Part shown: positions 2,312 to 61,460 of the stretch, piece after piece
Layout of the letters: every line of letters begins with the position of its first letter
Numbering within the stretch: position 1 is the first letter of the stretch
NCBI RefSeq assembly: GCF_001262075.1
Contig: NZ_CP012073.1
Span: 1,488,001-1,552,000, forward strand
Direction: 5' to 3'
DNA length: 64,000 nt
Origin: Ottowia sp. oral taxon 894
Lineage (GTDB): Bacteria > Pseudomonadota > Gammaproteobacteria > Burkholderiales > Burkholderiaceae_C
Made by a program: the position numbers and the translations under genes
Notes under the pieces: generated by a model
What the model was told of the DNA's origin: nothing
The model's database searches: none
What the model saw: the letters and a program-made list of their open reading frames with translations, nothing else

Positions 2312-2391
2312 TTTCGCTCCTTGATTCATAGCATGATGTCCTAGTGGAATAAGCGCAAGGCCTATTTTTTGGGCCTTGAATTTGCTCCTCT
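2312..2391 (-). repeat. Dispersed 80-bp intergenic repeat, copy 1
   Basis: Member of the family described in the findings. Read on the minus strand it has GAGC tetramers 68 bases apart, the core CACTAGGACATCATGCTATG and both end blocks. The variable part forms a perfect AAGGCC/GGCCTT stem (2357-2376) around an A/T-rich loop. It fills most of the gap between purF and metZ. Confidence 0.9.
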
Positions 2392-2419
2392 TTTCTTTAG
2401 TCCGCCCTGAAGGCCTGCC

Positions 2420-3637
2420 ATGACCCAACCCACCGACACCCTGCCTCTGCCCCCCGGCCTGCACCCGGACACCCTGGCCGTGCGCACCACCATCCCGCGC
2501 AGCGGCTACGGCGAGCACTCCGAGGCGCTGTATCTCACCAGCTGCTTTGTGCAGCCGGACAGCGAAACATCGGCGCGCAACTTCGCCAGCCCGGACGAGG
2601 GCTACACCTACAGCCGCACGGGCAACCCCAGCGTCACCGCCTTCGAGCAGCGCCTGGCCGCGCTGGAAGGCGCGCAACGGGCGCTGGCCACGGCCAGCGG
2701 CATGTCGGCCATCTTGCTGCTGGGCCTGGCGCTGCTCAAACAGGGCGATCACGTGATTTGCTCGCGCTCCATGTTCGGCTCCACCATGCGGCTGTTCGGC
2801 ACGGACTTCGCGCGCTTTGGCGTGCAAACGAGCTTTGTCTCGCAAACCGACCCCGCCGCCTGGCAAGCCGCCGTGCGCCCGGACACGCGCCTGCTGTTTG
2901 CCGAAACGCCGACCAATCCGCTCACCGAGGTGTGCGACATCGCCGCGCTGGCGGCCATCGCCCATCAGGCCGGCGCCTTGCTGGTGGTGGACAACTGCTT
3001 TGCCACGCCTGTGCTGCAACGCCCGCTGGCGCTGGGGGCTGACTTGGTGGTGCATTCGGGCACCAAGTTTCTGGACGGGCAAGGCCGCGTCATGGCCGGC
3101 GCTGTGTGCGGCAGCAGCGAACTCATTGGCCAGCTCTCGCCCGTGGCGCGCGCAGCGGGGCTGACGCTCTCGCCCTTTAACGCCTGGGTGGTGCACAAGG
3201 GGCTGGAAACGCTCTCGCTGCGCGTGCGCGCCCAAAGCGAAGCCGCCTTGCAACTGGCCCGGTGGCTGGAGAGCCAGCCCGCCGTGGAGCGCGTGTATTA
3301 CCCCGGCCTGCCCTCGCACCCGCAGCACGCGCTGGCCATGCAGCAGCAAGGCGGCCTGGGCGGCGCCGTGCTGGCCTTCAGCCTGCCCGGCAGCACGCCC
3401 GATGAAGCGCGCCGCCGGGCCTTCCATCTCATTGACTCGCTGCGCGTGTGCAGCATTGCCACCAACCTGGGCGATGTGAAAACCATCGTCAGCCACCCCG
3501 CCAGCACCTCGCATGGCCGCCTGAGCGAAGAGCAGCGCCAGGCCGCCGGCGTGACCCAGGGCCTGATTCGCGTGGCCGTGGGGCTGGAGCACCTGGACGA
3601 CATCCGCGCCGACTTGCTGCGCGGGCTGCAAGGCTGA
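2420..3637 (+). CDS. metZ: O-succinylhomoserine sulfhydrylase
   Basis: PLP enzyme of the Cys/Met metabolism family (405 residues) that makes homocysteine from O-succinylhomoserine and sulfide, in methionine synthesis. The PLP lysine is K216 in the motif HSGTKF. The substrate and cofactor motifs YSRTGNPS and NCFATP are present. Position directly after purF is a common arrangement for metZ in beta- and gammaproteobacteria, which favours metZ over metB or a gamma-lyase. The repeat between purF and this gene may separate the two transcripts. The sequence alone does not exclude an acetylhomoserine substrate. Confidence 0.88.
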   Translation: MTQPTDTLPLPPGLHPDTLAVRTTIPRSGYGEHSEALYLTSCFVQPDSETSARNFASPDEGYTYSRTGNPSVTAFEQRLAALEGAQRALATASGMSAILLLGLALLKQGDHVICSRSMFGSTMRLFGTDFARFGVQTSFVSQTDPAAWQAAVRPDTRLLFAETPTNPLTEVCDIAALAAIAHQAGALLVVDNCFATPVLQRPLALGADLVVHSGTKFLDGQGRVMAGAVCGSSELIGQLSPVARAAGLTLSPFNAWVVHKGLETLSLRVRAQSEAALQLARWLESQPAVERVYYPGLPSHPQHALAMQQQGGLGGAVLAFSLPGSTPDEARRRAFHLIDSLRVCSIATNLGDVKTIVSHPASTSHGRLSEEQRQAAGVTQGLIRVAVGLEHLDDIRADLLRGLQG

Positions 3638-3667
3638 ACCGCCGCCGTTTTCTTTTTTCCCAATCCC

Positions 3668-5083
3668 ATGACCAAGCCATCTTCCCCAGCTCCCGCCCGC
3701 GTGCGCACCCGCTTTGCCCCTTCGCCCACGGGCTTCATTCACCTGGGCAACATCCGCTCCGCGCTTTACCCGTGGGCCTTCGCCCGCGCCAAGGGGGGCG
3801 ATTTCGTGCTGCGCATCGAAGATACCGACCTGGAGCGATCCACCCAGGCCGCCGTCGATGTCATTTTGGAAAGCATGGACTGGCTCGGCATGAAGCCGGA
3901 TGAAGGCCCCTACTACCAAATGCAGCGCATGGACCGCTACAAAGAAGTGCTGGCCCGGCTGCAAGCGGCCGGCCACGTCTACCCCTGCTACATGAGCAAG
4001 CAGGAACTCGACGCGCTGCGCGCCCGCCAGGAAGCCGCGCGCGAAAAACCGCGCTACGACGGCACGTGGCGGCCCGAACCGGGCAAAACGCTGCCGCCCG
4101 TGCCCGAAGGCGTGCAGCCCGTGCTGCGCTTCAAAAACCCGAAAGACGGCGTGGTGGCCTGGGACGACAAAGTCAAAGGCCGCATTGAAATCAGCAACGC
4201 CGAGCTGGATGATCTGGTCATCGCCCGCCCCGACGGCACGCCCACCTACAACTTCTGCGTGGTGGTGGACGACATGGACATGGGCATCACCCACGTCATA
4301 CGCGGCGACGACCACGTGAACAACACGCCGCGCCAGATCAACATCTTCCGCGCGCTGGGCCACGAGCCGCCCGTTTACGCCCACTTGCCCACCGTGCTCA
4401 ACGAACAGGGCGAAAAAATGAGCAAGCGCAACGGCGCCAAGGCCGTGACGCAATACCGCGACGAAGGCTACCTGGCCGACGCCATGATCAACTACCTGGC
4501 CCGCCTGGGCTGGAGCCACGGCGACGATGAAATCTTCAGCCGCGAGCAATTCCTGGCCTGGTTCGACCTGGATCACCTGGGCAAAAGCGCCGCCCAGTTC
4601 GACGAAGCCAAGCTGCGCTGGGTGAACGCCCAGCACATCAAGGCCATGCCCGACGCCGAGCTGGCCCCGCTGGTGGCCGATCAGCTGCAAAAGCGCGGCA
4701 TCGCGCAAACCGACGAACGCCTGCCCGCCATCTGCGCCCTCTTCAAAGACCGCTGCGAAACCACCGTGGCCCTGGCCGGCTGGGCGCGCGCCTACTACGC
4801 CGACGTGCAGCCGCCGCAACAAGAGCTGGACCAGTTCGTCACCGACGCCATTCGCCCTGCCATCGCCAGCCTGCATGACAAGCTGAAAGCTGTCAGCGAA
4901 TGGAACGCCGCCGCCATCTCCGCCGCCGTCAAGCAAACGCTGGCCGAGCACGGCCTGAAAATGCCCCAGCTGGCCATGCCCGTGCGCGTGCTCGTCATGG
5001 GCACGCACCAGACGCCCAGCCTCGACGCCGTGCTGGCGCTGCACCACCAGCAAAAAGTTCTGGACTGCTTGCGCAAAGCCTGA
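3668..5083 (+). CDS. gltX: Glutamyl-tRNA synthetase
   Basis: Class I aminoacyl-tRNA synthetase that loads Glu on tRNA-Glu; 471 residues, normal length. The HIGH-type signature is [11 protein letters not shown] near residues 17-27 and the KMSKR loop is at residues 250-254. The window also encodes GatCAB, so in this organism Glu-tRNA(Gln) or Asp-tRNA(Asn) made by a non-discriminating synthetase could be amidated; whether this GltX is discriminating cannot be read directly. A tRNA-Glu gene follows 150 bases downstream. Confidence 0.97.
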
Positions 5084-5096
5084 AAATTGATATAGA
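5069..5096 (+). promoter_or_regulatory. Probable sigma-70 promoter of the tRNA cluster
   Basis: TTGCGC (5069-5074) and TATAGA (5091-5096) are separated by 16 bases and lie 44 bases before tRNA-Ala. The -35 box lies inside the last codons of gltX. Inferred from consensus only. Confidence 0.5.
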
Positions 5097-5139
5097 ATTC
5101 GCGCTTTCGCTGCAAGGCAAAAGCCAGCGCAGATGAAAC

Positions 5140-5215
<76 letters not shown>

Positions 5216-5229
5216 AAAAATCGGTTTTT

Positions 5230-5305
5230 GACCCTATCGTCTAGAGGCCTAGGACATCACCCTTTCACGGTGAGTACCGGGGTTCGAATCCCCGTAGGGT
5301 CGCCA
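5230..5305 (+). tRNA. tRNA-Glu (anticodon TTC)
   Basis: Acceptor stem GACCCTA pairs with TAGGGTC, the anticodon loop CTTTCAC gives TTC, and CCA is encoded. 14 bases after tRNA-Ala. It contains CTAGGACATCA, an 11-base string also present in the core of the dispersed repeat (see findings). Confidence 0.97.
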
Positions 5306-5355
5306 AGTTTTGCGGCGCTTGGCTTTCGCAAGAAAGCAAAAAGTCGCACCGGCGC

Positions 5356-5432: not shown

Positions 5433-5440
5433 AAGGATTC

Positions 5441-5476: not shown

Positions 5477-6002
5477 GCCCATTTTCTTTTCCGGATTGGC
5501 GGCGCATTCATATTCAAAATGGCCCGCCGCCCGTGCCGCCCTGGTATTCAAAGCCACGGCTCGTCCGTGAGCGTGAAAGCGCAGATGGGGATGCTCCTGG
5601 GCGCCGCAAATCCTTGATGAGGCGCAAAACTGCGCCTTGCAGCCCATTCTGAACCGCCGCCCCCAGGGCCAGACTTGAAAAAAGGGCTTCAATGCAGCCT
5701 GCTCACAGTTCGCATGAGCCGCCAGGAGCGCAGCACTTGCACCAGAAACAGGAGCAAAAACAAAGGCGCTGAGATGCCGTTCTGCGCAGGTTCATCTAGG
5801 ACCTATTGCTATGAATACAGGAGCTGAATCATTCTCTCGGTTCTCTGTTTGCTCCTGGCCGTTATGGGCGGGTCATGAAACGGCTCCATGCACAATTCGC
5901 GGGTTTCTTCAGCCGCTGTGATGAAGGCTTTCCTGCCGCTGCATCTTTCGCCATGCCAAGCGGCGCGCGGCCTGCAAAGCAGTTTTTCAAACCAGGAGAA
6001 TC
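5477..6002. other. Non-coding interval of 526 bases
   Basis: Contains repeat copy 2 and the leader of the next gene. The short frames here lack family signatures and ribosome sites. I see no RNA gene and no pseudogene. Confidence 0.6.
5748..5828 (+). repeat. Dispersed 80-bp intergenic repeat, copy 2
   Basis: Full copy, GAGC to GAGC 69 bases (5752 and 5821). The core reads ATCTAGGACCTATTGCTATG. End blocks ACAGGAGC are identical at both ends. Confidence 0.9.
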
Positions 6003-14432: not shown

Positions 14433-14474
14433 CCTTTCAGCCTGATCCGGCGGCCAGCTCAAGGAACATCAAAA

Positions 14475-14555
14475 ACAGGAGCTAATCTGAAGGGGGCAAA
14501 AAGACGCCTTGCGCAGGTTTCACTAGGACATCTTGCTCTTGATAAAAGAGCGAAT
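14475..14555 (+). repeat. Dispersed 80-bp intergenic repeat, copy 3
   Basis: GAGC to GAGC 69 bases (14479, 14548). Core CACTAGGACATCTTGCTCT; the right part is more diverged than in most copies. Lies between the convergent fghA and serC genes. Confidence 0.88.
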
Positions 14556-14610
14556 GAAGGGGATGAACGGCGCAAGACAGCGCCGCGCCGCCATCTTGCG
14601 CATGCGCCGC

Positions 14611-15756: not shown

Positions 15757-15832
15757 GACAGCATCGCAGGAAGTGAAGAAAAGGGCATTCTAGGTTTGCG
15801 CGGCCTGGCTTTGCCTGCTGTCTACATTGAAA

Positions 15833-15913
15833 ACAGGAGCGAATAAAGATGGGGTGAAATGCCATTCTGCGCAGTTTTGACTAGGACCTATTGCTATGAA
15901 TAGAGGAGCTAAG
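15833..15913 (+). repeat. Dispersed 80-bp intergenic repeat, copy 4
   Basis: GAGC to GAGC 69 bases (15837, 15906). Contains TGCGCAG, ACTAGGACCTATTGCTATG and a short ATGG/CCAT stem in the variable part. Its end TTGCTATGAAT may provide a -35-like TTGCTA for the candidate RNA that follows. Confidence 0.9.
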
Positions 15914-16124
15914 TTTATGCCTGTGCATTACCGGGCCAGGCGAGCTCTTTCTGTGCCTCGCAGGCCTGACTGGCGGCAGACAGATGCCAAACGAGAGCTT
16001 GCGTCTGTCTGGCTGAGCTAATGGCGTTGGCTTGTTGGTAGAGGCAAAAGCTGGGAAGCCCTTGTGACGTCAGTATTTGCAGCTCTGCCTTCAATCGTAA
16101 AAGCCCGCGTGTGCGGGCTTTTTT
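15914..16124 (+). ncRNA. Candidate structured small RNA
   Basis: No coding gene lies upstream on this strand (serC points away), yet the region ends in an intrinsic terminator at 16099-16124 with its T run on the plus strand. A strong hairpin lies inside: CAGACAGATGC (15977-15987) pairs over 11 bases with GCGTCTGTCTG (16001-16011), one G-U. No open frame with a ribosome site. The 5' end is not known; TTGCTA (15891) and TTTATG (15914) with 17 bases between could be a promoter. Not matched to a known RNA family by eye. Confidence 0.4.
16099..16124 (+). terminator. Intrinsic terminator (stronger on plus strand)
   Basis: AAAAGCCCGC, loop GTGT, GCGGGCTTTT and six T on the plus strand; only four T on the minus strand. 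It can therefore end the candidate RNA and, more weakly, the ComEA-like gene that converges from the other side. Confidence 0.85.
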
Positions 16125-22962: not shown

Positions 22963-23306
22963 GGAGAAGGCGCGGGCAAGCGTGCGAGTCTAAGGGACAG
23001 ACGCCGCCGCCACGCAGGCGGCGCCCCCCTTCCGGAGCTTGCTGGCGATCATGTTTCTGCCACGTTCCAGTGCGCCCATGAGAGTCGGAAGAAAACACCC
23101 GTGCGCGTTTCACGGTTTTGCAATGCGAGTGCCGGCCTGGCTTGCTCCTGTGGTCATCAGAGCGCGCGGGGCTGCTCCCTTGATTTGCTCCTTTAAAAAT
23201 AGCATGATGTCCTAGTGGATAAAGCGCGGAACGGCATTTATGCCCCTTTGTTTTTGCTCCTGTTTTTACATGGGTGCGGTCAAGGAGCGGGCCGGATCGC
23301 TGGCTC
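22963..23306. other. Non-coding interval of 344 bases
   Basis: Holds the leader of the antiporter operon and repeat copy 5, then the 3' end of lipA. No gene seen. Confidence 0.6.
23183..23263 (-). repeat. Dispersed 80-bp intergenic repeat, copy 5
   Basis: GAGC to GAGC 69 bases. On the minus strand the core reads CCACTAGGACATCATGCTAT. The variable part contains the near-perfect palindrome GGCATAAATGCC. Confidence 0.9.
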
Positions 23307-26737: not shown

Positions 26738-26848
26738 CCCACGCAGACAGCCTGGCTGAAACGGTCAGACCGCTTTGCACTCCTTGTCTCCTCCACCCCT
26801 CCTAAGGTGGATTCAAGCCCCAGGCCCTTCGGCCCGGGGCTTTTTTTT
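26738..26848 (+). ncRNA. Candidate small RNA with exposed CCTCCT loop
   Basis: Between osmC (minus) and argC (minus) there is no plus-strand coding gene, but the plus strand ends in a strong terminator at 26815-26848. Just before it the stem TCCACC/GGTGGA (26792-26811) closes the loop CCTCCTAA, which exposes an anti-Shine-Dalgarno sequence; a small CGGT/ACCG hairpin lies upstream at about 26760. TACACT at 26727 could be a -10 box but no good -35 is seen, so the 5' end is a guess. This layout is typical of regulatory RNAs that block ribosome sites. I do not assign it to a named family. Confidence 0.5.
26815..26848 (+). terminator. Intrinsic terminator without upstream coding gene
   Basis: GCCCC and GGCC arms pair with GGCC and GGGGC (one mismatch) around loop CTTC, followed by eight T (26841-26848). 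Confidence 0.9.
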
Positions 26849-26898
26849 GCACCGAAAACCCGCTTGCGCGCTGTCAAAGAGGCTGAATAGGTTCAGAA

Positions 26899-26979
26899 AA
26901 AGGAGCGAATTTAGAGGGTCTAAAAGAGGCTTCTGCACTCTTTCTACTAGGACCTCATGCTACGAATACAGTAGCTAAA
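26899..26979 (+). repeat. Dispersed 80-bp intergenic repeat, copy 6
   Basis: First GAGC at 26903; the second is changed to TAGC at 26972, 69 bases on. Core TACTAGGACCTCATGCTACG. Confidence 0.88.
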
Positions 26980-27031
26980 TGGGAGCCAGAAATCCAAGTT
27001 GAATGCCCGGGCCTGGGAGGCGGTTTCCAGC

Positions 27032-32610: not shown

Positions 32611-32659
32611 CTCGCCAAGAGCGGGCGGGTGCGGGCTGCCAGCGCGCAGATATTCAAAA

Positions 32660-32740
32660 AGAAGAGCGAAATCAGCGGCATCAAAAATGGCATCAGCGCT
32701 CATTCCACTAGGACCCATTGCTATTGATACAGGAGCGAAT
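32660..32740 (+). repeat. Dispersed 80-bp intergenic repeat, copy 7
   Basis: GAGC to GAGC 69 bases (32664, 32733). Core TTCCACTAGGACCCATTGCTATTGATACAGG is intact though split by small changes. Ends 70 bases before the cyclase gene. Confidence 0.9.
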
Positions 32741-32809
32741 TCCGCGTCTGCCCGCCGCCTGTTCGCCAGCGCGCCGCAGCCTTCGCTTCGCTGCTGAAAG
32801 CCTTGCTCC

Positions 32810-34978: not shown

Positions 34979-35050
34979 AGAGTGAAATGCAGCCACCGCC
35001 GCAAGAAACCACTCACGAGCCGCCGCGCAGCCAGCCGGAAAACACCAAAA

Positions 35051-35131
35051 ACAGGAGCGGATCAAAACAGGTGAAAACGCCGTCCCCCGCAGTTTTCACT
35101 AGGACCTATAGCTACAAATAGAGTAGCGAAA
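35051..35131 (+). repeat. Dispersed 80-bp intergenic repeat, copy 8
   Basis: First GAGC at 35055, second changed to TAGC at 35124, 69 bases on. Core TTCACTAGGACCTATAGCTAC. Confidence 0.88.
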
Positions 35132-35149
35132 ATGTGCTTCTTCGCTCGT

Positions 35150-35300
35150 CCACTCTGGCTGGCTCTTTCCGCTTTCCACGGCCAGAGCCCAAAAGGGGCA
35201 AAGAGTGGATTGGGATGGGCTGCACAGGCGAGATTTGTTGCTCGCTTGCTTGCGCGTCCGGCGAGGCATTTGCAATGCCCAAGGCTGCTCCGGCCTCGCC
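35150..35300. other. Nested inverted repeats
   Basis: CCACTCT (35150) pairs with AGAGTGG (35202) and encloses GGCTCT (35161) with AGAGCC (35184). GCGAG (35228) pairs with CTCGC (35241). GGCGAGGC (35260) pairs with GCCTCGCC (35293) and encloses GGCATTTGCAATGCC. Could be a transcript-end structure for either convergent gene or part of a structured RNA. Confidence 0.4.
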
Positions 35301-35347
35301 CGGATCCGCGCGTTTTTGCGCCTGCGGGATGGGCTGCGTACAGGCCC

Positions 35348-35833
35348 TCAGGGCAGCTCGCCCAGCAGCGTGCCGGTGTACGGCCCCTTGTACAAGGCCC
35401 AGCGCTTGCCGGCTCCTTTGGGCAGCAGCTCCTGCTGCGAGTGGGCGACGGTGTGCGCCTGCACCCAGGCGCCCGGGTAGCCCGCCATGTCGCCCTGGGC
35501 CGTGCGCGGCAGCGCCTCCATCATCTGGGCGGCTTTTTCATCGCTGTCCAGCAGCCACAGCCAGGCGTTTTTCTCCTTGGCATGAACGGCCTGCGCCAGC
35601 GTCATGATCTGCGCGTCGCTCAAGTTGGGCGAAACCAGCAGGTAGAGGCGGCGAATGCCGTGCGGATCGGTGTATTCGCCCAGGGTGCGCAAAGGCGCGG
35701 CGGCGGTGGCGGCGGAAGACGTTTTCATGTCACTTTTACCTTCTGACGTGGCTTGGGGTGAAGCGGCCTGGGCTGTGGCGGCGCCGAGCGCGCCCAGCAG
35801 CAGCGCGGCAGCTCCGATGTGGCGGATTGGCAT
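35348..35833 (-). CDS. Hypothetical secreted protein
   Basis: 161 residues, not recognised. A signal peptide ends AAATAQAA (about residue 23), then a 25-residue Ser/Ala-rich linker and a domain of about 110 residues beginning RTLGEYTDPHGIRRLYLL. The start is well supported: ATTCAGGAGG lies 8 bases before ATG 35833. No Cys in the mature part. Predicted periplasmic; convergent with the cyclase gene and divergent from purC. Function unknown. Confidence 0.7.
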   Translation of the reverse strand: MPIRHIGAAALLLGALGAATAQAASPQATSEGKSDMKTSSAATAAAPLRTLGEYTDPHGIRRLYLLVSPNLSDAQIMTLAQAVHAKEKNAWLWLLDSDEKAAQMMEALPRTAQGDMAGYPGAWVQAHTVAHSQQELLPKGAGKRWALYKGPYTGTLLGELP

Positions 35834-35996
35834 GGCTCAAAACCTCCTGAATGATCGGCCACCCGCCATCTGGCTGCGGGCGGCCGCTAGCAAAAAACAG
35901 TGCCAGACACTGATGAGCGCGGGAGCATACGTGCTGCGGCACAATGCTTTTTTTGCTTTTTGTGTCTGACTTTCGCCCTGCCGGGGGCCTGCCGCC

Positions 35997-36914
35997 ATGC
36001 CTTCATCTTCCGCCTTGCTCACCAGCCAGCTTGCCAGTCTGCCGCTCATCGCGCGCGGCAAGGTGCGCGACAACTATGCCGTTGGCAATGACCGCATCCT
36101 CATGGTCGCCAGCGACCGCATCAGCGCCTTTGACGTCATCATGGGCCAGCCCATCCCGGGCAAGGGGCGGCTGCTCACGCAAATGGCGCTGTGGTGGTTT
36201 GAACAGCTCAAGGGCATCTGCCCCAACCATCTCACGGGCATAGACCCGGCCAGCGTTGTCAGCGCCAGCGAAGCGGAGCAAATCCGGGGCCGCAGCATGC
36301 TGGTGCGGCGCTTGCGGCCCATCGCCGTGGAAGCCGTGGTGCGCGGCTACCTGGCGGGCAGCGGCTGGCAGGAATACCGTCAAAGCCAAAGCGTATGCGG
36401 CGTGCCCTTGCCGGCGGGCCTGCAAAACGCCAGCAAACTGCCCCGGCCCATTTACACCCCCGCCGCCAAGGCCGCCGTGGGCGAGCATGACGAAAACATC
36501 AGCTACGAGCGCACGGTGGAAATTGCCGGGCCGTCCGTGGCCGCGCAGATTCGCGATTTCTCGCTGGCCCTGTACACCCGCGCGGCCGCCCTGGCGCTGC
36601 AAAAGGGCATCATCATTGCCGACACCAAATTTGAATTCGGCCTGGACGAAACCGGCCAGGTTGTGCTGATGGACGAGGTGCTGACCCCCGACTCTTCCCG
36701 CTACTGGCCCGCCGCCGAATACCGCGAAGGCGTCAACCCGCCCAGCTACGACAAGCAGTATCTGCGCGACTGGCTGGAAACGGCCCAGGTGGATGGCCGC
36801 CCCTGGCCCAAACGCGCCCCTGCGCCCGAGCTGCCCGCCGAAGTCATCACCAACACCGCCGCCCGCTACCGCGAAGCCCTGAAGGCGCTGACAGGGCAGG
36901 ATCTGGCCGAGTGA
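35997..36914 (+). CDS. purC: Phosphoribosylaminoimidazole-succinocarboxamide synthase
   Basis: 305 residues, the longer form found in many betaproteobacteria. ATP-dependent joining of aspartate to CAIR in purine synthesis. GKVRDNYAV and SDRISAFDV at the N terminus, [23 protein letters not shown] and [13 protein letters not shown] are the family signatures. Stands alone; purF is 35 kb away. Confidence 0.97.
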
Positions 36915-36947
36915 AGCTGCGCCGCTGAAGCGGCTTGCAGGTCAGAA

Positions 36948-37028
36948 AGAGGAGCAAATTTGGCAGGGTAAAAATGCCGCTTTGCGCAATGTCTACTAGG
37001 ACATCGTGCTATTGGTAAAGGAGCGTTT
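36948..37028 (+). repeat. Dispersed 80-bp intergenic repeat, copy 9
   Basis: GAGC to GAGC 69 bases (36952, 37021). Variable part forms GGCA/TGCC stem; core TACTAGGACATCGTGCTATTG. First of two same-strand copies in one gap. Confidence 0.9.
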
Positions 37029-37286
37029 GGCGCTGCATGCTTCGCACATCCTGGCCTGTTTGGTTCAGCGGGCCGTTGGAGCAGGATTTGTGGCGGGAAT
37101 ACGTGCGTGATGGCTGCACGGGGCAGTCGCTGGAGCGGGGCAGGGCAGGCGGGATGACGGGCCGACCCGCCTTTGTGTTCCCGCAAACGGCTGTGAGCGG
37201 GTTCTGAAGCGCCGATGCGGCAAGTCCGCAGCAGGCTCTTGATGGAGACGGTGCGGGAGCTTTCGTGATGCCTCCGCTCCACAAAA
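37029..37286. other. Unassigned 258-base segment between two repeat copies
   Basis: No coding frame with a ribosome site, no tRNA and no terminator. Flanked on both sides by same-orientation repeat copies 9 and 10 in the 525-base gap between purC and the DUF1631 gene. Confidence 0.5.
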
Positions 37287-37366
37287 ACAGGAGCAAATTC
37301 AGAGGCTGGAGATGCCGCCTTGCGCGCTTTCGACTAGGACATCACGCTATTGATTGAGTAGCGAAA
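37287..37366 (+). repeat. Dispersed 80-bp intergenic repeat, copy 10
   Basis: GAGC at 37291, TAGC at 37359 (68 bases). AGGC/GCCT stem in the variable part; core CGACTAGGACATCACGCTATTG. Confidence 0.88.
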
Positions 37367-37439
37367 TAATGCCGTGCGCCTGCGGTTTGTTGAAGACCTT
37401 GCCGCCTTGCCGCGTGCGGGCGGATCCGCGAGCGGCTTT

Positions 37440-39875
37440 TCAGGACAGCAGCTGCGCGGGCTGGGCGTCCAGCCGGGCCAAGGCGTCGCGGGTGGCGCGC
37501 ACCGTGAGGGCTTCGTCTTCTACCAGCGCCAGCAGGCCAGCCTGGAGCCAGGCGGCCAGGCGGCGGGTTTGCACCATGTAGTTCTTGTTGCCGCCGGTGA
37601 AGATGTGCAGCTGCCCGCGCGGGCTGCGCCAGACGTATTGCACGCGCACCAGGCTGCCGCCCTGCTCCATTTCAAACCACGCGCCCAGCTCCAGCTCGCG
37701 CGCCCAGGCCACGGTGGCGGCGCTGGGCATGGAGCCGCCGGATGAGATGACGATCAGATCGCCCGCGTCCACGCCGAGCATGAGTTCGATGGCGCCCGGA
37801 TCGAGCATGACGTCGCCCACGGCGTCGTCGCTGACCACGTCTTCCAGCGCGTTGAGCTTGCGGCTGAGCGTTTCCAGGGTTTCGTCGGAAATGGCTTCGG
37901 AGCGGGCCATGAAGGCTTCGGTCACGGCGTCGCTCAGGGTTTTGACGTGGCGGTCCTGTACGTCTTGCGGCATGCCCAGGCCGCTCATGCCCTGGCGCAG
38001 CGTCTGGATGAGGCCGGGCAGGCTTTGCAGCACGCGCGCGCGCTCGTCGCGGTTGGGCTTGGCGCTCACGGCCCAGAGCAGGTCGTGCGCGGCGCGCTTG
38101 AATTCGAGCGCCTGCCGGCTTTGCGCGCCGTGGCGCACGGAGGCGGTGGCGAGCACTTCGGCCCAGGTGTGAAAGAGAAATTCGCGCACCTCTTCTCGCA
38201 CGGGCAGATTGGCGAGCATCTTGTTGAGTTCGATGGTGTATTGCACCGCGAGCGCTTCTTTTTGCTCCACCTGCTGCGCTAGCGTGGCCACGCGCTCGGC
38301 GCTGCCGCCTTCGGTGAGGAACTGGGCCAGGAATTTCCTGAATTCGTCCAGCACGAGCTGGAACACGCGCCGCCCGGTTTCCGGGTATTGCTCGATTACT
38401 TGCACGATGCGCTTGATTTCGCGCTCCAGCCGCGCGTTGCTGACGCTGGCGGCTTCAAAGCCCATGGCGCAAGCGCCCATGCGGTCGATCAGCTGGCGGG
38501 CGGGGTGGTCGATGTTGCTGAAAAAGTCCGGCTCGGCCAGCGCCAGGCGCAAAACGGGAATTTGCAGGCGCGCGAACCACACGCGGATGCCCGCCGGAAT
38601 GCGCTCCTCCGCCAAGATGGCCTGGAACATGAGGGCCACGATTTCGATGATGGCCTTTTCGTTCTTGGTGCCCGCTTCCTGCTTGAGTTCGGCGGCCTGA
38701 TGGCGCAGGCGGCTGGCGACTTGCTCCACGCGCTGCACCTGCACGGCGGGCGGCAGGGCGGCAATGGTGGGGCGGTACGGGTCAGTGGCCGCGCCATCCA
38801 GCTGGGTCAGCGCCGTATCCAGCGGCGAAGGCGGGTGCGCGAGCGCCTGCGCCAGCTGGGGGCTGGGTTCAATGGGCTGGGTGTGGCTGAAATCGGTGAC
38901 GCGGTCGCTGAGCAGACGGCGCAGCTTGCCCAGCACGCCCTGGGCGCGTGCGCGCATGCGCATCATGGGCGCAGCGCCCGTGAGCATGCGCGTTTCTTCG
39001 GCCACGCGCATCAGGTCGGTGGGGCGCACGGGCGCCATGCCGGGCTGGCTCTGGCCCGCTGGCGCGAAGCTGCCTGAGGCGGCCCGGCCATTGCCTGCTG
39101 CATCGCCTTGCCAGCCGCTGCCAAAAGCCGAAGACTGCGAGGCGCCACTCCAATCCGGGCTGGAGCCGGGCGCGCTGTCTGGCGAGCCGCCCAGCCCGGC
39201 GCTGCCTGTGCGCGGGCCGCCTGCGGTTCTGCGCACCATGGCTTTGAGGTTGATTTGCGGCATCACGCCGCGCTCGATCAGGAATTTGTTGGCGTTCTGA
39301 TAAGCCTGCGCCAGCGCCAGCGCCAGCGCGGCCCGCACGGTTTCATGCACCACGCTCCACATTTCGCGCGAAAGGTCGCAGGCGCGCCACTGCTCGATAA
39401 GGATGCCCGGCAGGCACTCCGGGCGCAACACGTCTTTGGGGCTGATGTCAGGCGTCTGCTCCAGAAACTGGATGCGGACGTTCAGGTCGTTCAGCTCGGC
39501 TCCGCTTTTGTCGATGGCCGCCAGGCTCAGGCGCGAAGCGATGATCTTGTTTTCCACCACCTCGTCATCCAGCAGCGAAAAAGCCGTCAGCCCGGCAGGG
39601 GCGGCTGCCGGGGCGGGCTGGGCCTGGGCCAGCGCCTTTTCCAGCGCCTGGCGCACCTGCCGCTCCCAAACGTCGCGCTGAGGCTCGAAGCCCATGCGCG
39701 CATCCAGGGCCAGGCGCTGCTCCTGCATGCTGGCGGGCATGTCGATGGCATTGGACAGGCGCTCTCGCATGGTGGCCACCAGTTGCGGCAGCCAGCGGAC
39801 CAGCTCCGCGACAAACTGTTCTCGCGTCTGGCGGGCCAGACGCATCTGCGGGGAATTTGCGGGAGGAGGTGTCAT
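37440..39875 (-). CDS. DUF1631 family protein
   Basis: 811 residues, cytoplasmic, mainly helical. Family features include the N-terminal QTREQFVAELVRWLP, EIVALMFQAILAE in the middle and the C-terminal block VRVQYVWRSPRGQLHIF with FTGGNKN, which resembles a PilZ-like strand region. An Ala/Gly/Ser-rich linker covers about residues 210-290. DUF1631 genes are common in beta- and gammaproteobacteria; the function is unknown to me. It ends just before repeat copy 10. Confidence 0.85.
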   Translation of the reverse strand: MTPPPANSPQMRLARQTREQFVAELVRWLPQLVATMRERLSNAIDMPASMQEQRLALDARMGFEPQRDVWERQVRQALEKALAQAQPAPAAAPAGLTAFSLLDDEVVENKIIASRLSLAAIDKSGAELNDLNVRIQFLEQTPDISPKDVLRPECLPGILIEQWRACDLSREMWSVVHETVRAALALALAQAYQNANKFLIERGVMPQINLKAMVRRTAGGPRTGSAGLGGSPDSAPGSSPDWSGASQSSAFGSGWQGDAAGNGRAASGSFAPAGQSQPGMAPVRPTDLMRVAEETRMLTGAAPMMRMRARAQGVLGKLRRLLSDRVTDFSHTQPIEPSPQLAQALAHPPSPLDTALTQLDGAATDPYRPTIAALPPAVQVQRVEQVASRLRHQAAELKQEAGTKNEKAIIEIVALMFQAILAEERIPAGIRVWFARLQIPVLRLALAEPDFFSNIDHPARQLIDRMGACAMGFEAASVSNARLEREIKRIVQVIEQYPETGRRVFQLVLDEFRKFLAQFLTEGGSAERVATLAQQVEQKEALAVQYTIELNKMLANLPVREEVREFLFHTWAEVLATASVRHGAQSRQALEFKRAAHDLLWAVSAKPNRDERARVLQSLPGLIQTLRQGMSGLGMPQDVQDRHVKTLSDAVTEAFMARSEAISDETLETLSRKLNALEDVVSDDAVGDVMLDPGAIELMLGVDAGDLIVISSGGSMPSAATVAWARELELGAWFEMEQGGSLVRVQYVWRSPRGQLHIFTGGNKNYMVQTRRLAAWLQAGLLALVEDEALTVRATRDALARLDAQPAQLLS

Positions 39876-43970: not shown

Positions 43971-44741
43971 TCACGCCAGCAGCGCCAGCGCGGCCACGGG
44001 CGCGGTTTCGGCGCGCAGCACGCGCGCGCCGAGGCTGACAGGAGTGAAGCCTGCCGCCAGCGCCTGAGCTTCTTCTGCGGCGCTCAGGCCGCCTTCGGGG
44101 CCGGAAAGAAGGGTGACGGTTTGCGCGGCAGGCAGGCCGGCGCATGCAGCGCGCAAAGAAGCGGCGCCGGGCTTCAGGGAGAGGACAAAACGCGCGCCGT
44201 CCCCGTCTCCGGCCTGGCCTGCAAGGCCCTCCGCCAGGGGGCGGGGCGGATGAATGAGGGGCAAGCGATTGCGGCCGCTTTGCTCGCAGGCGGCCACGGC
44301 CACGGCTTGCCAGTGCGCGTGTTTTTTGGCGGCATGCGGGCCGCTCAGGCGCAGGGCGCAGTGCTGGGTGAGCAGGGGGGTGAGGCTGGCAGCGCCCAGT
44401 TCGGTGGCTTTTTCCACCAGCCAGTCCATGCGCTCACTGGCCATGAGGCCCGCCAGCAGATGCACGCGGCGGGCCGCTTCGCGCTCAATGGCTGCATGAG
44501 CGCCTATGCGCGCCTGCACGCTGCTGCGGCCCATGCGGATGATGGTGGCGCTGCATTCGCCGCCTTCGCCATTGAACAGGGTCAACGCGTCGCCCGGCTG
44601 CAAGCGCAGAACCTGGGCGTGGCGCGCCGCGCCGTGCGGCAGATCCAGCTCACCGCCTTCAGGCAGGGCTTGCGGCACATACAAACGCGGCGCGGCGGCC
44701 TGCGGTTTGCGAACAGGAGACAAATTAGCTCCGTTATTCAT
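43971..44741 (-). CDS. rsmE: 16S rRNA m3U1498 methyltransferase
   Basis: 256 residues. SPOUT-fold methyltransferase: EKATELGAASLTPLL and the knot block LLSGPEGGLSAAEEA with SLGARVLRAETAP. N-terminal PUA-like domain starts PRLYVPQAL, where family members usually begin. Here the only ATG lies 18 codons earlier, inside repeat copy 11, so the first residues (MNNGANL) are repeat-encoded; a TTG at codon 7 is an alternative. Function certain, start uncertain. Confidence 0.93.
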   Translation of the reverse strand: MNNGANLSPVRKPQAAAPRLYVPQALPEGGELDLPHGAARHAQVLRLQPGDALTLFNGEGGECSATIIRMGRSSVQARIGAHAAIEREAARRVHLLAGLMASERMDWLVEKATELGAASLTPLLTQHCALRLSGPHAAKKHAHWQAVAVAACEQSGRNRLPLIHPPRPLAEGLAGQAGDGDGARFVLSLKPGAASLRAACAGLPAAQTVTLLSGPEGGLSAAEEAQALAAGFTPVSLGARVLRAETAPVAALALLA

Positions 44742-44804
44742 AGCAAGAGGTCCTAGTGGAACCTGCGCAGAATGGCATTCTTACCCCCTTGAATTTGCTC
44801 CTGC
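44724..44804 (-). repeat. Dispersed 80-bp intergenic repeat, copy 11 (overlaps rsmE start)
   Basis: GAGC to GAGC 69 bases. On the minus strand it reads core CCACTAGGACCTCTTGCTATG, and the ATG of this core is the only ATG available to rsmE. Confidence 0.9.
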
Positions 44805-44899
44805 TTTTGGGTGCGATTGGGAGCTGTCTCAAGCTCAAGCCAGCGCCGCGCTCATGCGCCGGGCGCGCTTGGCGGCGCGCTTTGCCAGCCAGCTTTGCA

Positions 44900-49394: not shown

Positions 49395-49513
49395 GCGCCT
49401 GTTTCAGGCCAGCCAGGCGGCGGACGCGCCTTTCAAAAGGCCCGCGCTTGCACGGAGATAATGCTTTTCGCGCGGGCTGACTGGCCCGTGAGCGCCTCAA
49501 TGAAAGGCCACAG

Positions 49514-49593
49514 ATTCGCTCTCGAATTCGTAGCAGCATCTCCAAATTACACTAGGACGCCACGGTTTTTCGCCCCTCTGAATCTGCTCCTTT
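49514..49593 (-). repeat. Dispersed 80-bp intergenic repeat, copy 12, with internal inversion
   Basis: Ends and spacing (68 bases) fit the minus orientation, but the internal 20 bases 49539-49558 match the family better when inverted: CACTAGGAC appears on the plus strand at 49550-49558 and is displaced. Lies inside the mreB-mreC gap. Confidence 0.8.
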
Positions 49594-49666
49594 TTTCTGA
49601 TGCAGAACAGCCCGCCCGCTCCAGCCGCCCACTGCCGCCAGCCGCTGCCGCCAGCCCGCTTCGTCC

Positions 49667-55613: not shown

Positions 55614-55627
55614 CTCTGGACGCCCCC

Positions 55628-57181: not shown

Positions 57182-57298
57182 CGTTGCGCCGCCAGCGGGG
57201 CAAGGCCGATGCCGGTTTTTTCATGCATGAGCGGCAAGCCGCAACCTGCCCGCTGGCGCCATGCCGAAACGGGAGGGAAAGCGGAGTAGAAAGGATGA

Positions 57299-57378
57299 TT
57301 TTGCTCCTTGATTCATAGCATGATGTCCTAGTGGAACGTGCGCAACGCCAGTTTTCAGGTCTCTGAATTTGCTCCTTT
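57299..57378 (-). repeat. Dispersed 80-bp intergenic repeat, copy 13
   Basis: GAGC to GAGC 68 bases. Minus-strand core TTCCACTAGGACATCATGCT is the consensus form. Ends nine bases before the permease stop. Confidence 0.9.
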
Positions 57379-57387
57379 TTTAGGGGA

Positions 57388-58806
57388 TCAGCTCCGCTCG
57401 GCCATTGGGCTGGCAAAGCCTGGTGAAACCACCTGGCGCTGTTCGGGCCGCCTGGCCATGGCTTTGGAAAGCGACAGGTGCAGCACGAACGTGATGATGA
57501 GCGCCGCCAGCCCTGACGGAAAGTCAAACGGCAGCGGCAGCTTGTACTGGAACGCCACGCCCGCCACGGCTCCGGCGCTGAATGAGAGGATGGCGGGCCA
57601 GCGCACGGGCGGCATGTCGTTGGGGTTGGCCGTGGCGTATTCGGCGCGGCGCACGAAGTAAAAGTCCGCCAGGATGGGGCCGGCCAGCGGCACGAAGGCC
57701 GCGCCCAAAATGGTGATGAAGTGCCCGAAAAGATGGCTGTAAAAGCCCAGCGCCCCCAGCACGGAGCCAAGAGCGCCCACGATGATGACAATGCGCCCGC
57801 GCGGCCAGCGCGCGCCCAGCGATTCGGCGCTAGGCCCCACGTACAGCGCGTTGCAGTACAGCTCGGACATATTGGTCGTCCACAGCGCCAGCACCCACAG
57901 CGCCACGCCCAGCACGGTGAGGATGACGCCCTTTTGCACCATCCAGGCGATGAAGTCCGAATTGCCCGTGGCCACCGCCCCCAGGTAGCCCACCACGTTG
58001 AGCAGCGGATTGGTGAGCACGAAGCAGGCCGCCGCGCCCACCAGCACGTGCGCGGCGTTTTTCGCGTAGCGGAAGATGTCCACGCCCATGATCACGCCCG
58101 CAATCCACGCGCCAATCAGCACTGTGACGGCCGTGCCGGGCGTCATGCCCGAGCGCGTGGCCGCCTGCCGCAGCACCGCGCCCATGCCGCCGGCCTCGCC
58201 CACCATCATCACGGCCACCACCACGGCCACCACCAGCACGAAGGGCGTGGCCGCCGACGAAATCTTCTCGATCGCGGCAATGCCCCGCCAGGCCGAATAG
58301 GTGAACACCGCGCCCCACAGCAGGCACAGCAGCACGTATTCGAGCGACAGGCCATTGACCACCGTCACGCCCGTCACATCGCCCAGCGCCGCCTTGAAAA
58401 TGTCGCCCACCATGCCGGTGATGGAAGCGAACCAGCCCAGCGTCAGGCAGGCCATGATGAGCATGGGCAGCACCATGCCCTTGCGCCCGTAGGAAATGCG
58501 CGAAATCAGCGAAAGATTCAGCCCCGTGCGCATGGCCGCGTAACCCAGCAGAAAAGTCAGCGCCAGCAGCAGCCCCTCGCCCGTGGCAATGGCCAGCAGC
58601 GCCTGGCCAAACGGCATGCCCGGCTGGCCGCCCTGGCCCGCCAGCTGCCCGCCCACGATCAGCCCCGTGGGCACATAGCCAAAGCCCACCCAGATGGCGA
58701 ACATGGCCCACCAAGAGCGGCGCGCGCCGCGCGGCACCGGCTCCAGCATGAACTCCTCATTGCCTTGCGGCTCCTGGCGGCCGCCGGCTGCGGGCAGATC
58801 AGACAC
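57388..58806 (-). CDS. NCS1 family nucleobase permease (cytosine/purine type)
   Basis: 472 residues, about 12 membrane helices. NEEFMLEPVPRGARRSWW at the N terminus and AIWVGFGYVPTG are typical of CodB/NCS1 carriers. GTG 58806 is chosen because AAGGAG lies 10 bases before it and the family residues before LEPVP are kept; ATG 58749 is the shorter choice. Divergent from puuE, so a purine or allantoin-related substrate is likely. Confidence 0.85.
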   Translation of the reverse strand: MSDLPAAGGRQEPQGNEEFMLEPVPRGARRSWWAMFAIWVGFGYVPTGLIVGGQLAGQGGQPGMPFGQALLAIATGEGLLLALTFLLGYAAMRTGLNLSLISRISYGRKGMVLPMLIMACLTLGWFASITGMVGDIFKAALGDVTGVTVVNGLSLEYVLLCLLWGAVFTYSAWRGIAAIEKISSAATPFVLVVAVVVAVMMVGEAGGMGAVLRQAATRSGMTPGTAVTVLIGAWIAGVIMGVDIFRYAKNAAHVLVGAAACFVLTNPLLNVVGYLGAVATGNSDFIAWMVQKGVILTVLGVALWVLALWTTNMSELYCNALYVGPSAESLGARWPRGRIVIIVGALGSVLGALGFYSHLFGHFITILGAAFVPLAGPILADFYFVRRAEYATANPNDMPPVRWPAILSFSAGAVAGVAFQYKLPLPFDFPSGLAALIITFVLHLSLSKAMARRPEQRQVVSPGFASPMAERS

Positions 58807-58954
58807 TTTTTCACTCCTTGCGAAATGGCGTTGCAAAGCACAGCATCTTGCGCCCAAAATGGCCTCTTGTAACTTGTGGGTATTCACAATGTGATTGGCG
58901 TTTCTCCGCTTCCTAGAATCCAGCTGTTTCCACCCACAGAGAAAGGCCCATGCC

Positions 58955-59938
58955 ATGCCCAGCCCGGAACAAATCGCCAAAAACCACTGGTACCGCAACG
59001 ACGACCTGCCCGGCGTCAGCGGCCCCGAGCGCGAAATCATTGGCTACGGCGAGCGCCCGCCCCGCATCCGCTGGGACGGGGGCGCCAAAGTCGCCATCAA
59101 CATCGTCGTCAATTACGAAGAAGGCTCCGAAAAAACCTTCGCCATGGGCGACCACATGAATGACGGCATGTACGAGCTGCCCTTCAACGTGGACGACCAG
59201 CGCGACCTCGCCAAGGAATCCATGTACGAATACGGCTCGCGCGCCGGCGTGTGGCGGCTGCTGCGCATCTTCGACCGCTGCCAGGTGCCCGCCACCTTCT
59301 TTGCCGCTGCCGTGGCGCTGGAGCGCAACCCCGAAGTCGCCCGCAAGCTCAACGAACGCGGCGACGAAGTCGTCGGCCACGGCTACCGCTGGATTGACCA
59401 CTACGAATACTCGCGCGAAGAAGAAAAAGCCCTCATCAACCTGGCGATGGACTCGTTCCAGAAAACCCTGGGCCGCCAGCCCAGCGGCTGGTACTGCCGG
59501 GAAATGTCCGTCAACACCCGCGAGCTGCTCGTGGAAGACGGGCGCTTTCTCTACGACTCCGACTACTACGGCGACGACCTGCCGCACTGGACCTTCATCA
59601 ACGGCAAATCCCACCTCATCGTGCCCTACTCGCTGGTCACCAACGACTGCCGCTACATCATGGGCACCGGCTTTGCCGCCGCCTCCGACTTCGTGGAAAT
59701 GGCCTCGCGCACGCTTGACCAGCTGCTCGACGACGGCGACGACTGCGGCCGCATGATGTCCATCGGCCTGCACCCGCGCATCACCGGCAACCCCGCCCGC
59801 GCCAACGGCCTGGCCGAATTCATCCGCTACGCGCAGTCCAAGAAAGACGCCGTCTTCATGCGCCGCGACGCCATCGCCCGCAAATTCATCGAACAAGTGC
59901 CCCGCCCCGCCACCCCGGCCGACCGGCCCAACCGCTGA
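58955..59938 (+). CDS. puuE: Allantoinase PuuE (polysaccharide-deacetylase fold)
   Basis: 327 residues. NodB-like fold family member that opens allantoin to allantoate without metal in known PuuE. NYEEGSEKTFAMGD, SRAGVWRLLRIFD, FFAAAVALERNPE and HPRITGNPAR match PuuE. ATG 58955 follows AAAGG. The NCS1 permease is divergent, giving an uptake-plus-breakdown unit for purines. Other genes of the pathway are not in the window. Confidence 0.9.
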   Translation: MPSPEQIAKNHWYRNDDLPGVSGPEREIIGYGERPPRIRWDGGAKVAINIVVNYEEGSEKTFAMGDHMNDGMYELPFNVDDQRDLAKESMYEYGSRAGVWRLLRIFDRCQVPATFFAAAVALERNPEVARKLNERGDEVVGHGYRWIDHYEYSREEEKALINLAMDSFQKTLGRQPSGWYCREMSVNTRELLVEDGRFLYDSDYYGDDLPHWTFINGKSHLIVPYSLVTNDCRYIMGTGFAAASDFVEMASRTLDQLLDDGDDCGRMMSIGLHPRITGNPARANGLAEFIRYAQSKKDAVFMRRDAIARKFIEQVPRPATPADRPNR

Positions 59939-59953
59939 GCCGCCCCCGCCACC

Positions 59954-59984
59954 AAAGCCTGCCCTCTCCCGGCAGGCTTTTTTT
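59954..59984 (+). terminator. Intrinsic terminator after puuE
   Basis: AAAGCCTGCC and GGCAGGCTTT pair around CTCTCCC, followed by T to 59984; starts 16 bases after the stop. Confidence 0.92.
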
Positions 59985-60033
59985 GTGCCTGTCACGGCCG
60001 TCAGCGCAACAGGCGGCGGAAAGAGAAACGTCA

Positions 60034-60113
60034 ATTTGCTTCTGAATCCATAGCGTGATGTCCTAGTGGAAAGAGCGCAAACGCTGTTTTCTACCCCTTT
60101 AATTTGCTTCTTT
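60034..60113 (-). repeat. Dispersed 80-bp intergenic repeat, copy 14
   Basis: Both end tetramers are changed from GAGC to AAGC but remain 68 bases apart. Minus-strand core TTCCACTAGGACATCACGCT. Confidence 0.88.
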
Positions 60114-60242
60114 TTCTGAAGCGAATACCGCCGCGCAGGCGCTGGCGCCGCCTGGTGGCGGGCCGCGCTGCGCCACAATCGCCCCCGGCCGCCGCCTTGC
60201 TCCCATGCGCCATCGCATGCGAAAAGGGCGGCGGCCAGCTTG

Positions 60243-60545
60243 ACAGGTGCCCCAAGGCTGCTTTCTTGCGGTCAAAGGGTTAAACGGGAAGCAGGTGCGC
60301 GTCTTCAGGCCATGCCGCAACGGCATGCGCCCGGGCCGCAAAGCCTGCGCTGCCCCCGCAACGGTCAGCGGAAACCAAACCCCGACAGCCAGCGCGCCCC
60401 TCGCGCGCGGCAGCCACTGCGCTTCTTGCCCTGAGCCATTCAGGGCTGGCGCGGGAAGGCCGGGGCCTCGCAGCAAGCCAGGCGCGCCTTCGCCAGAAGC
60501 CGCGTGCCGCCTGCGGCGGTCCGCAAGCCCGGATACCGGCCTGCC
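60243..60545 (+). promoter_or_regulatory. Cobalamin (adenosylcobalamin-type) riboswitch
   Basis: All main conserved parts occur in order: GGTGCC near the 5' end, GGGTTAAACGGGAAGCAGGTG (60277-60297), GCTGCCCCCGCAACGGTCAG (60349-60368), AGCCACTG (60412), CGGGAAGG (60452) and the B12 box AAGCCCGGATACCGGCC (60524-60540). The outer stem CAGGTGCC/GGCCTG closes it. About 300 bases, longer than usual because of GC-rich variable arms. Coenzyme B12 binding normally lowers expression of the downstream gene. The only gene downstream on this strand is pseudoazurin, 211 bases away. Confidence 0.93.
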
Positions 60546-60756
60546 CTCAAGCCTTTCCGTCGGCGGCTGCGGGCGTGCGGCTGGCCGGCCAAGGCCCATG
60601 CACCAGCCATGCCGCAAGGCGCGCGCCGTTTACCGCGCCGCCGTCTCGCATGACTTTCGCGCTGCCCGGCCCTGACCGCGCTTTTGCTCCCGCCTGCGCT
60701 GCCTTTTGGCAACCCATGCCGCTCGCGGGAGAAGCGGGCGGCCAGGAGATCAGCGC

Positions 60757-61302
60757 ATGTTCCACGCTCTACCCCCGGCCTCTGCGGCGCAGTCCGCCCG
60801 TGGCCTCATCCACAGTCATTCCCGCCGCCATTTCCATCGCCGTTCGCGCTGGCTTTTCAACGCTTTCGCGGCCCTCGCGCTGGCCTGCGCCGCGCATGCG
60901 CCCGCGCCCGCCTGGGCCAAAACCTGGGAAGTGAAGATGCTCAACCGCAACGCCACCGGCCCCATGCCCTTCGAGCCGGACTATCTGCACATCGCCCCTG
61001 GCGACAAGGTGAAATTTCTCGCCGTTCACAACGGTCACAACGCTGCCTCCATTCCCGGCATGGCTCCCGAGGGCGCGCCGTCCTTCACGGGCAAGATCAA
61101 CGAGGAAATCGAGGTGGCCTTCGAGCAGCCGGGCCTCTACGGCGTGCGCTGCATGCCGCACTACACCATGGGCATGGTCATGCTCATCCGCGTGGGCGAC
61201 GGCCCCGGCCCGCAGCAAATGCAGATTCCGCCCGAAGTGCCCGCCGCCGCGCAAAAGCGCTTTCACGAAATTGCCGCCCGCACCCAGCAGGCTGGCAAGT
61301 GA
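60757..61302 (+). CDS. Pseudoazurin (blue copper protein)
   Basis: 181 residues. Type 1 copper ligands H94 (GHN), C132, H135 and M140 are all present with family spacing. The export signal is long: an Arg/His-rich stretch and a hydrophobic segment, cleaved near PAWAK (about residue 54). ATG 60757 has AGGAG 9 bases before it. Pseudoazurins carry electrons in the periplasm, often to copper nitrite reductase or nitrous oxide reductase; neither is in the window. Preceded by a cobalamin riboswitch. An inverted repeat CTCCCGC (60688) / GCGGGAG could mask the leader. Confidence 0.93.
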   Translation: MFHALPPASAAQSARGLIHSHSRRHFHRRSRWLFNAFAALALACAAHAPAPAWAKTWEVKMLNRNATGPMPFEPDYLHIAPGDKVKFLAVHNGHNAASIPGMAPEGAPSFTGKINEEIEVAFEQPGLYGVRCMPHYTMGMVMLIRVGDGPGPQQMQIPPEVPAAAQKRFHEIAARTQQAGK

Positions 61303-61379
61303 GCCGCGCGCGGGTGAAAAAGAGCAGCAGGCGGCAGTGAAAAAGGGGGGCACGGAAATGGCCGGAAGGCCAGCACCAT

Positions 61380-61460
61380 ATTTGCTCCCGAATCCATAGC
61401 TTGAGGTCACGATGGAGGCTGCGCCATGCGGTATTTTTGCCCCTCTGCATTTGCTCCTGT
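61380..61460 (-). repeat. Dispersed 80-bp intergenic repeat, copy 15
   Basis: GAGC to GAGC 69 bases. The core is damaged (CATCGTGAC for CACTAGGAC) while the ends and GGGGCAAAAATACC are kept. Confidence 0.85.

Follow-up and report, generated by a model that had tools for sequence, protein, structure and literature searches.

Repetitive extragenic palindromic (REP) sequences and bacterial interspersed mosaic elements (BIMEs) exist in hundreds of copies, almost exclusively between genes, in Escherichia coli, Pseudomonas and Stenotrophomonas, and BIMEs bind DNA gyrase, as stated in excerpts of PMC6379681, PMC2817692 and PMC3686654. Another family, the beta-proteobacterial repeat element (BRE), is about 90 bp long, usually intergenic and present in Comamonadaceae and Bordetella; according to excerpts of its description (Hot et al. 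2011, PMC3110155), the Bordetella elements have a guanine-plus-cytosine (GC) content of 69% (63.7-78.9%), and BREs form tandem arrays of up to 8, with at most 29 copies per genome in the table given there. Here we describe a dispersed repeat from a stretch of 64,000 nucleotides of Ottowia sp. oral taxon 894 (contig NZ_CP012073.1, positions 1,488,001 to 1,552,000), hereafter the window. Judged from its sequence, the repeat appears to belong to the known kind of high-copy intergenic repeats, as a previously undescribed family, which is called GGAC-type after one of its half-sites. The explanation that we tentatively prefer, at close to even probability, is a radiation specific to this lineage, whose copies are now stationary and would be maintained, under purifying selection, as sites at which a putative protein binds double-stranded DNA.

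The Ottowia repeat resembles REP sequences and BIMEs in its hundreds of intergenic copies, but it lacks the GT(A/G)G head and adjoining palindrome of REP, its genome has no gene for a REP-associated tyrosine transposase (RAYT; Y1 type, PF01797), and it does not form the arrays of alternating orientation seen for BIMEs. With BRE it has a similar length and a mostly intergenic position in common, whereas GC content, number of copies and tandem arrangement set the two apart, a separation that is made by excerpts of the published description of BRE and not by BRE sequence. Miniature inverted-repeat transposable elements (MITEs) are likewise short, non-coding and of high copy number, but the ends of the Ottowia repeat are direct, not inverted, and no target duplication has been mapped. 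Neither this family nor the parent family introduced below was found described in the open-licence literature, in which nothing beyond BRE came up.

Copy number, anatomy and gene context

The repeat was searched with an nhmmer profile of 48 copies, of which 14 come from the window and 34 from elsewhere in the same genome. With this profile the window yields 15 copies, 8 on the plus and 7 on the minus strand, just as a preliminary description of the window had counted fifteen in near-equal orientations. When the window is taken together with 20 stretches of 20 kb (464 kb), there are 111 matches, 106 of them full length, against 0 in the same 464 kb reversed. In 662 kb of the genome there are 156 matches (76 on the plus and 80 on the minus strand), and extrapolation to all 2,925,783 bases gives a total of about 690 copies, or one per 4.2 kb, close to the one per 4 kb estimated at the outset; the family is thus neither small nor restricted to the window. 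The core pattern with at most one mismatch has 474 matches in the genome, compared with 4 for the pattern read backwards, and the exact pattern CTAGGACNTNNNGCTA has 366; with at most three mismatches there are 7 matches in the window and 0 in 100 shuffles. Most copies score between 60 and 80 bits (102/156), decayed copies with less than 50 bits being a minority (25/156). Elements that bear the same ends around another core amount to one case in the 464 kb beyond those already listed.

The unit is about 95 bp long, and its blocks occur in fixed order and with fixed spacing: AAAxAGGAGCxAAT, AAA, GCGC, TTCCACTAGGAC, GCTATxxAT and AGGAGCxAA. The counts of its anatomy refer to 105 aligned copies, one of the 106 full matches having been dropped for lack of a recognisable core, and the alignment was anchored by fuzzy matches to the end and core words, so that the conservation of those words is somewhat inflated. 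The two ends are direct repeats, as the preliminary description had it, and AGC is invariant at both of them (105/105). The tetramer reported there as GAGC or a variant thereof is GAGC at 95 left ends, at 85 right ends and at both ends of 77 copies; its first letter is otherwise A or T (TAGC at 2 left and 11 right ends), and the ends mostly read AGGAGC. The spacing from end to end is 69 in 64 copies, 68 in 40 and 70 in one, and it is 68 or 69 in all 15 copies of the window, which bears out the fixed spacing that first drew attention to the family (104/105 in the sample). With a GC content of 45.5% for the repeat and 66% for the window, each copy is an island of about 95 bp.

Conservation is very unevenly distributed over the unit. 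The AAA, the GCGC, the core TTCCACTAGGAC and the GCTAT are strongly kept, with the GA of GGAC at 0.98-1.00, and of the 84 columns 19 reach a conservation of at least 0.95 while 22 do not exceed 0.6. The standard deviation of column conservation is 0.183, compared with 0.041 expected under uniform decay, and even decay from a single master would leave essentially no columns at either extreme. The most alike pair among the 105 copies is identical at 89% of the 84 columns, where copies with shuffled columns give 83-87%. Recent spread, one of the two possibilities raised earlier, is therefore unlikely, because the closest pair is only 89% identical.

Gene context was taken from a home-made heuristic predictor, which gave 523 genes and 75% coding sequence. 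None of the 156 copy centres lies inside a predicted gene, in accordance with the intergenic position originally claimed, and the one overlap with a gene that had been reported was not reproduced and may depend on the choice of start codon. Nearly all copies (150/156) sit in gaps of at least 60 bases between two predicted genes, and the share of such gaps that hold a copy is 40/58 where the genes converge, 92/243 where they run in tandem and 11/66 where they diverge. Copies prefer the 3' ends of genes, and the median distance from stop codon to element is 73 bases (183 ends). Which way a copy points relative to the gene is random (63 of 130 ends on the stop side); as to replication-strand bias, the skew of the 20-kb samples is weak. 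Two copies share a gap in 7 of the 367 cases, where simulation predicts 25-28 and where none of 5000 runs, with either weighting, gave so low a number; no gap holds more than two.

The constraint looks to act on DNA rather than on RNA, because there is no excess folding and the orientation relative to genes is random. Compared with shuffled sequences, whole copies fold with z values of -0.28 and -0.08 on the two strands, and the flank control gives -0.19. The tendency to self-complementarity described earlier for the stretch before the core is not confirmed, as native arms fold only slightly better than swapped ones (-6.17 vs -5.89, standard deviation 0.17, z -1.7), and RNAalifold applied to 48 copies gives 6 pairs without compensatory change. 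RNA structure was rejected, as covariance, arm swapping and shuffling of both strands are all near null. Constraint, the second of the possibilities raised earlier, is supported, though it does not look like that of an RNA site.

The parent repeat and the spread of the GGAC type

Outside the Ottowia genome the exact pattern CTAGGACNTNNNGCTA is missing from 28 congeners, several of whose genomes are incomplete, and from 7 other members of the family, and it has a single match among 24 further genomes of the order. A covariance model search, insensitive through strict filters and 27 scored candidates per genome, gave one match among 149 other genomes of the family (genome G123, full length, 33.6 bits, E value 0.008). 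This copy, together with weak profile matches in Polaromonas, Acidovorax and others, led to an older parent repeat of the form GCGC-N11-GCGC...AGCTAT...AGtAGC, with the consensus AAAAAGGCCTCTAGCGCTTGCCCGACAAGCGCTAGCAGCTATCAAATTAGTAGC. With a strict parent pattern, 21 of the 150 genomes from the window's taxonomic family give at least 20 matches each, and as many as 515, with at most 2 in controls; densities of 362, 288 and 288 per Mb were obtained with the near-palindrome counted once across strands. In the Ottowia genome the strict parent pattern has only 8 matches.

The parent and the GGAC-type repeat are collinear without gaps from the AAA to the right AGC (half-site at +15, GCTAT at +24), and a Polaromonas copy (L110) aligns to the profile over 62 columns without a gap. 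The second GCGC of the parent aligns where GGAC stands in the Ottowia copies; in the parent the AGGAGCxAAT block on the left is faint or missing, and the near-palindrome is longer. Because 81 of 105 Ottowia copies have GGAC as their second half-site and none has GCGC there, the Ottowia family is, on this alignment, best placed as a derived sister subfamily of the parent repeat and not as a plain member of it. The parent is patchily distributed: in three Acidovorax genomes about 93 kb contain 9 copies, about 73 kb contain 5 and about 93 kb contain 8, and three others (G203, G204 and G205; L208-L215, L035, L039 and L041) have none at an E value of 1e-3 in 198.6 kb, made up of about 93, 93 and 13 kb per genome. 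One type of parent-profile match lies, in two species, inside what we take to be a conserved coding gene, and is presumably a chance likeness.

Parent copies that occupy the same address in different genomes may be compared column by column. Six ortholog groups with 19 copies, from Acidovorax and related genomes, were assembled by eye from shared flanks, and the columns were classified on 62 copies from three genomes of the window's own genus (G010, G013 and G023) instead of on the genomes of the orthologs. Orthologous pairs agree in 439 of 472 high-information cells, in 259 of 403 middle and in 221 of 350 low ones, and for paralogous pairs the corresponding agreements are 0.87, 0.55 and 0.40. 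The higher agreement of orthologous pairs in the first class than in the other two implies retention of conserved columns in place, so that, on these alignments, the most conserved columns of the parent repeat would stay at the same address while the remainder drift.

To see how the GGAC type came to its present places, consider the corresponding gaps in the nearest relative seen, G021. In G021 the gap of the copy at 2303-2394 is without the repeat, as judged from an alignment and from both profiles, and in G014 it holds a parent-type copy of 32.2 bits in the opposite orientation; the flanks in Ottowia (G000) and G021 are too diverged for a target-site duplication to be mapped at this empty gap. 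For the copies at 26893 and 32654, the corresponding G021 gaps fall short by 107 and 44 bases, respectively, and give no match with either profile. The converse situation is found in the short gap that follows directly on that of the copy at 2303-2394 (window positions 3638-3700), where Ottowia has no copy and where G021, G010, G014 and G025 have parent-type copies (43.7, 47.7, 20.6 and 23.8 bits, respectively) at a shared place and in a shared orientation. Copies of the old type were probably lost in Ottowia while those of the GGAC type settled elsewhere, as this one locus suggests. Copying is needed for the spread, both because hundreds of sites cannot each convert the same half-site to GGAC and because the three syntenic gaps in G021 have no copy; that the spread took place within the Ottowia lineage is supported by these gaps and by the lack of exact matches in the 28 congeners.

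Copies in the window and neighbouring elements

Copies of the GGAC-type repeat in the window, with strand, nhmmer score and context
Position	Strand	Score (bits)	Context or peculiarity
2303..2394	-	74.7	syntenic G021 gap without copy
5743..5836	+	72.2	
14469..14559	+	74.8	convergent genes either side
15829..15919	+	73.3	
23178..23268	-	72.5	
26893..26986	+	74.9	45 bases past RF02278 match
32654..32748	+	70.6	no profile match in syntenic G021 gap
35046..35141	+	63.1	convergent genes either side
36942..37027	+	69.8	convergent gap, first of same-strand pair
37282..37374	+	75.8	convergent gap, second of same-strand pair
44717..44809	-	82.3	
49505..49596	-	31.5	strongly diverged, core GTCC-N11-GGAG (core word inverted)
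57290..57383	-	73.9	
60027..60119	-	72.1	both ends AAGC
61372..61465	-	62.1	convergent gap, altered core (ATCGTGAC)

Two RNA families are found next to copies in the window. A match to the Betaproteobacteria toxic small RNA RF02278 lies at 26785-26847 on the plus strand (60 bits), upstream of the copy at 26893, and a cobalamin riboswitch at 60242-60558, also on the plus strand (50.9 bits), follows just past the copy at 60027. Other repeats were seen in the relatives. A GC-rich repeat of about 130 bp (GGCCGCGGAGCAGGCC...GTTGTCCCCC) is present in several copies in L161, L156 and L157 (genomes G023 and G013) and might be related to BRE. G021 has a repeat of its own, CTGAGAACCTGTTCAAAATC... (L145, L147, L151 and L031), which is absent from 12 listed repeat regions of the Ottowia sample. 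A separate repeat of about 140 bp at L061:8303-8450 has many matches, with about 72-92% identity, across six Acidovorax genomes.

Weighing of the explanations

The preferred explanation, a stationary site in double-stranded DNA, is supported by the lineage restriction, the three empty gaps in G021, the uneven columns, the small share of decayed copies, the absence of near-identical pairs and of a fold, the random orientation, the bias among gaps, the near limit of one copy per gap and the orthologous copies of the parent. By this explanation one variant, in which GCGC-N11-GGAC replaced GCGC-N11-GCGC, would have been copied into hundreds of gaps by a machinery that need not persist in the present genome, the older-type copies would have been lost meanwhile, and the new copies would then have ceased to move and been kept by purifying selection as protein sites. 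Positive supercoils meet at convergent gene ends. A candidate for the protein would be a nucleoid or topology protein that acts between transcription units, by analogy with the BIME sites in E. coli. Gyrase sites have, in excerpts of PMC6379681, a phased G/C content and a position downstream of operons, and the attraction of gyrase to such positions seems, according to the same source, to be driven by transcription instead of hard-wired. The parallel with gyrase and BIMEs may be taken as a lead and not as a test.

Several points weigh against the preferred explanation. Column-specific conservation might also mirror the needs of a mobilising enzyme. The copies have some subfamily structure, as seen from the spread of pairwise identity (standard deviation 0.071, compared with 0.045 in column-shuffled copies) and from core letters that change together. 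The core itself varies: 106 of 156 matches contain CTAGGAC exactly and 14 more contain it with one mismatch, and some copies have GTCGC...CGGGGAC or, in a few cases, the inverted core word GTCC-N11. In a subset of copies (L129:5187-5282, L141:19389-19479 and others) a left core word GTCGC or CCGC goes with a right one (G/C)GGGGAC, and the two core halves look as if they changed together. The ortholog groups of the parent are few and hand-picked, their pairs are not independent, and profile detection favours conserved columns; moreover, selection in place was assessed in the parent only, as no second genome with the GGAC-type family was found. A gene map based on a predictor makes the counts of gene context approximate. 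Finally, a G/C phasing of about 11.5 bp is weak and post hoc (p 0.03 against second-order autoregressive, AR(2), surrogates), and as one of the two flank controls also signals (p 0.11 and 0.002), helical phasing was not relied upon.

The first of these points leads to the strongest rival, which we regard as possible though doubtful: a non-autonomous mobile element, by now inactive or served by some enzyme, whose conserved blocks and direct ends would reflect what that enzyme needs and not a function for the host. The bias toward gene ends and the single copy per gap would then be tolerated insertion sites combined with a sort of target exclusion. A radiation restricted to one lineage, the three corresponding gaps that are empty in G021, equal orientations, a fixed length, the patchy parent family in Acidovorax and the subfamily structure all fit such an element. 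It is harder to reconcile with the lack of near-identical copies among the 105, with a conservation of at least 0.95 in 19 of 84 columns, where inactive copies should decay evenly, and with parent copies that retain their conserved columns at orthologous sites. Nor is there a Y1 transposase (PF01797) in the Ottowia genome or in G021, other transposase families not having been searched, though the Y1 family is present in 111 of 150 genomes of the family. At 31 Y1/RAYT-like loci of relatives there is no match of the GGAC-type profile; the parent profile matches at 3 (L229, L225 and L185) and a regular expression at one more (L164), which was judged, without formal test, to be near background density. 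With neither PF01797 in the genome nor the repeat at the Y1 loci of relatives, a RAYT/REP origin was rejected for the GGAC-type family, and the link to a TnpA-REP-type transposase that the preliminary description had raised is not supported.

A more specific proposal goes beyond a bound site, and we hold it to be rather unlikely: the copies would form a hard-wired array of architectural sites, one per gap, which are bound by gyrase, by some nucleoid protein or by a dimeric protein of their own and which insulate transcription units from each other, and the GGAC set would have replaced the GCGC set when the binding protein changed.

An RNA element in 3' untranslated regions, serving as terminator or as processing or stability signal, would account for the bias toward gene 3' ends, and the parent has a GCGC-N11-GCGC near-palindrome that folds slightly above shuffles (z -0.67), and part of its stem pairs slightly more often than shuffled sequence does (at one pair, for example, 40 against 30.5). 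It is nevertheless very improbable, in view of the null folding, the 6 RNAalifold pairs without compensation and the random orientation of the GGAC-type copies. An intrinsic terminator was rejected, since matches to a hairpin with a T-run inside 103 copies number only 2 on the plus and 8 on the minus strand of the element. At gathering scores Rfam has 5 matches in the window, none of which overlaps a copy; in 100 kb taken from congeners and containing copies of the parent type it has RF02278 alone, once in each of three stretches, and a permissive search of window positions 35000-38000 gave one match at chance level, outside the copies. A DNA uptake signal, or a similar sequence maintained by drive and recognised in transformation, would explain strong over-representation, lineage specificity, strand symmetry and little shared ancestry between copies, but it is hardly credible for a unit of about 95 bp with many blocks that lies outside predicted genes and derives from an older dispersed repeat, known uptake words being 10-12 bp long.

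High-copy intergenic repeats are often ascribed to traces of RAYT transposition. The Ottowia repeat has no RAYT, no fresh copies in the sample and no requirement for a palindrome; it occurs about once per gap and is conserved in specific columns, and it thus offers a clean case for asking whether such repeats turn into genuine chromosome-wide binding sites. As there are about 690 natural copies with scored variation, a protein partner is directly testable. If the proposal of an array of architectural sites were true, a single code for the organisation of the chromosome would exist among these bacteria in several versions, each specific to a lineage.

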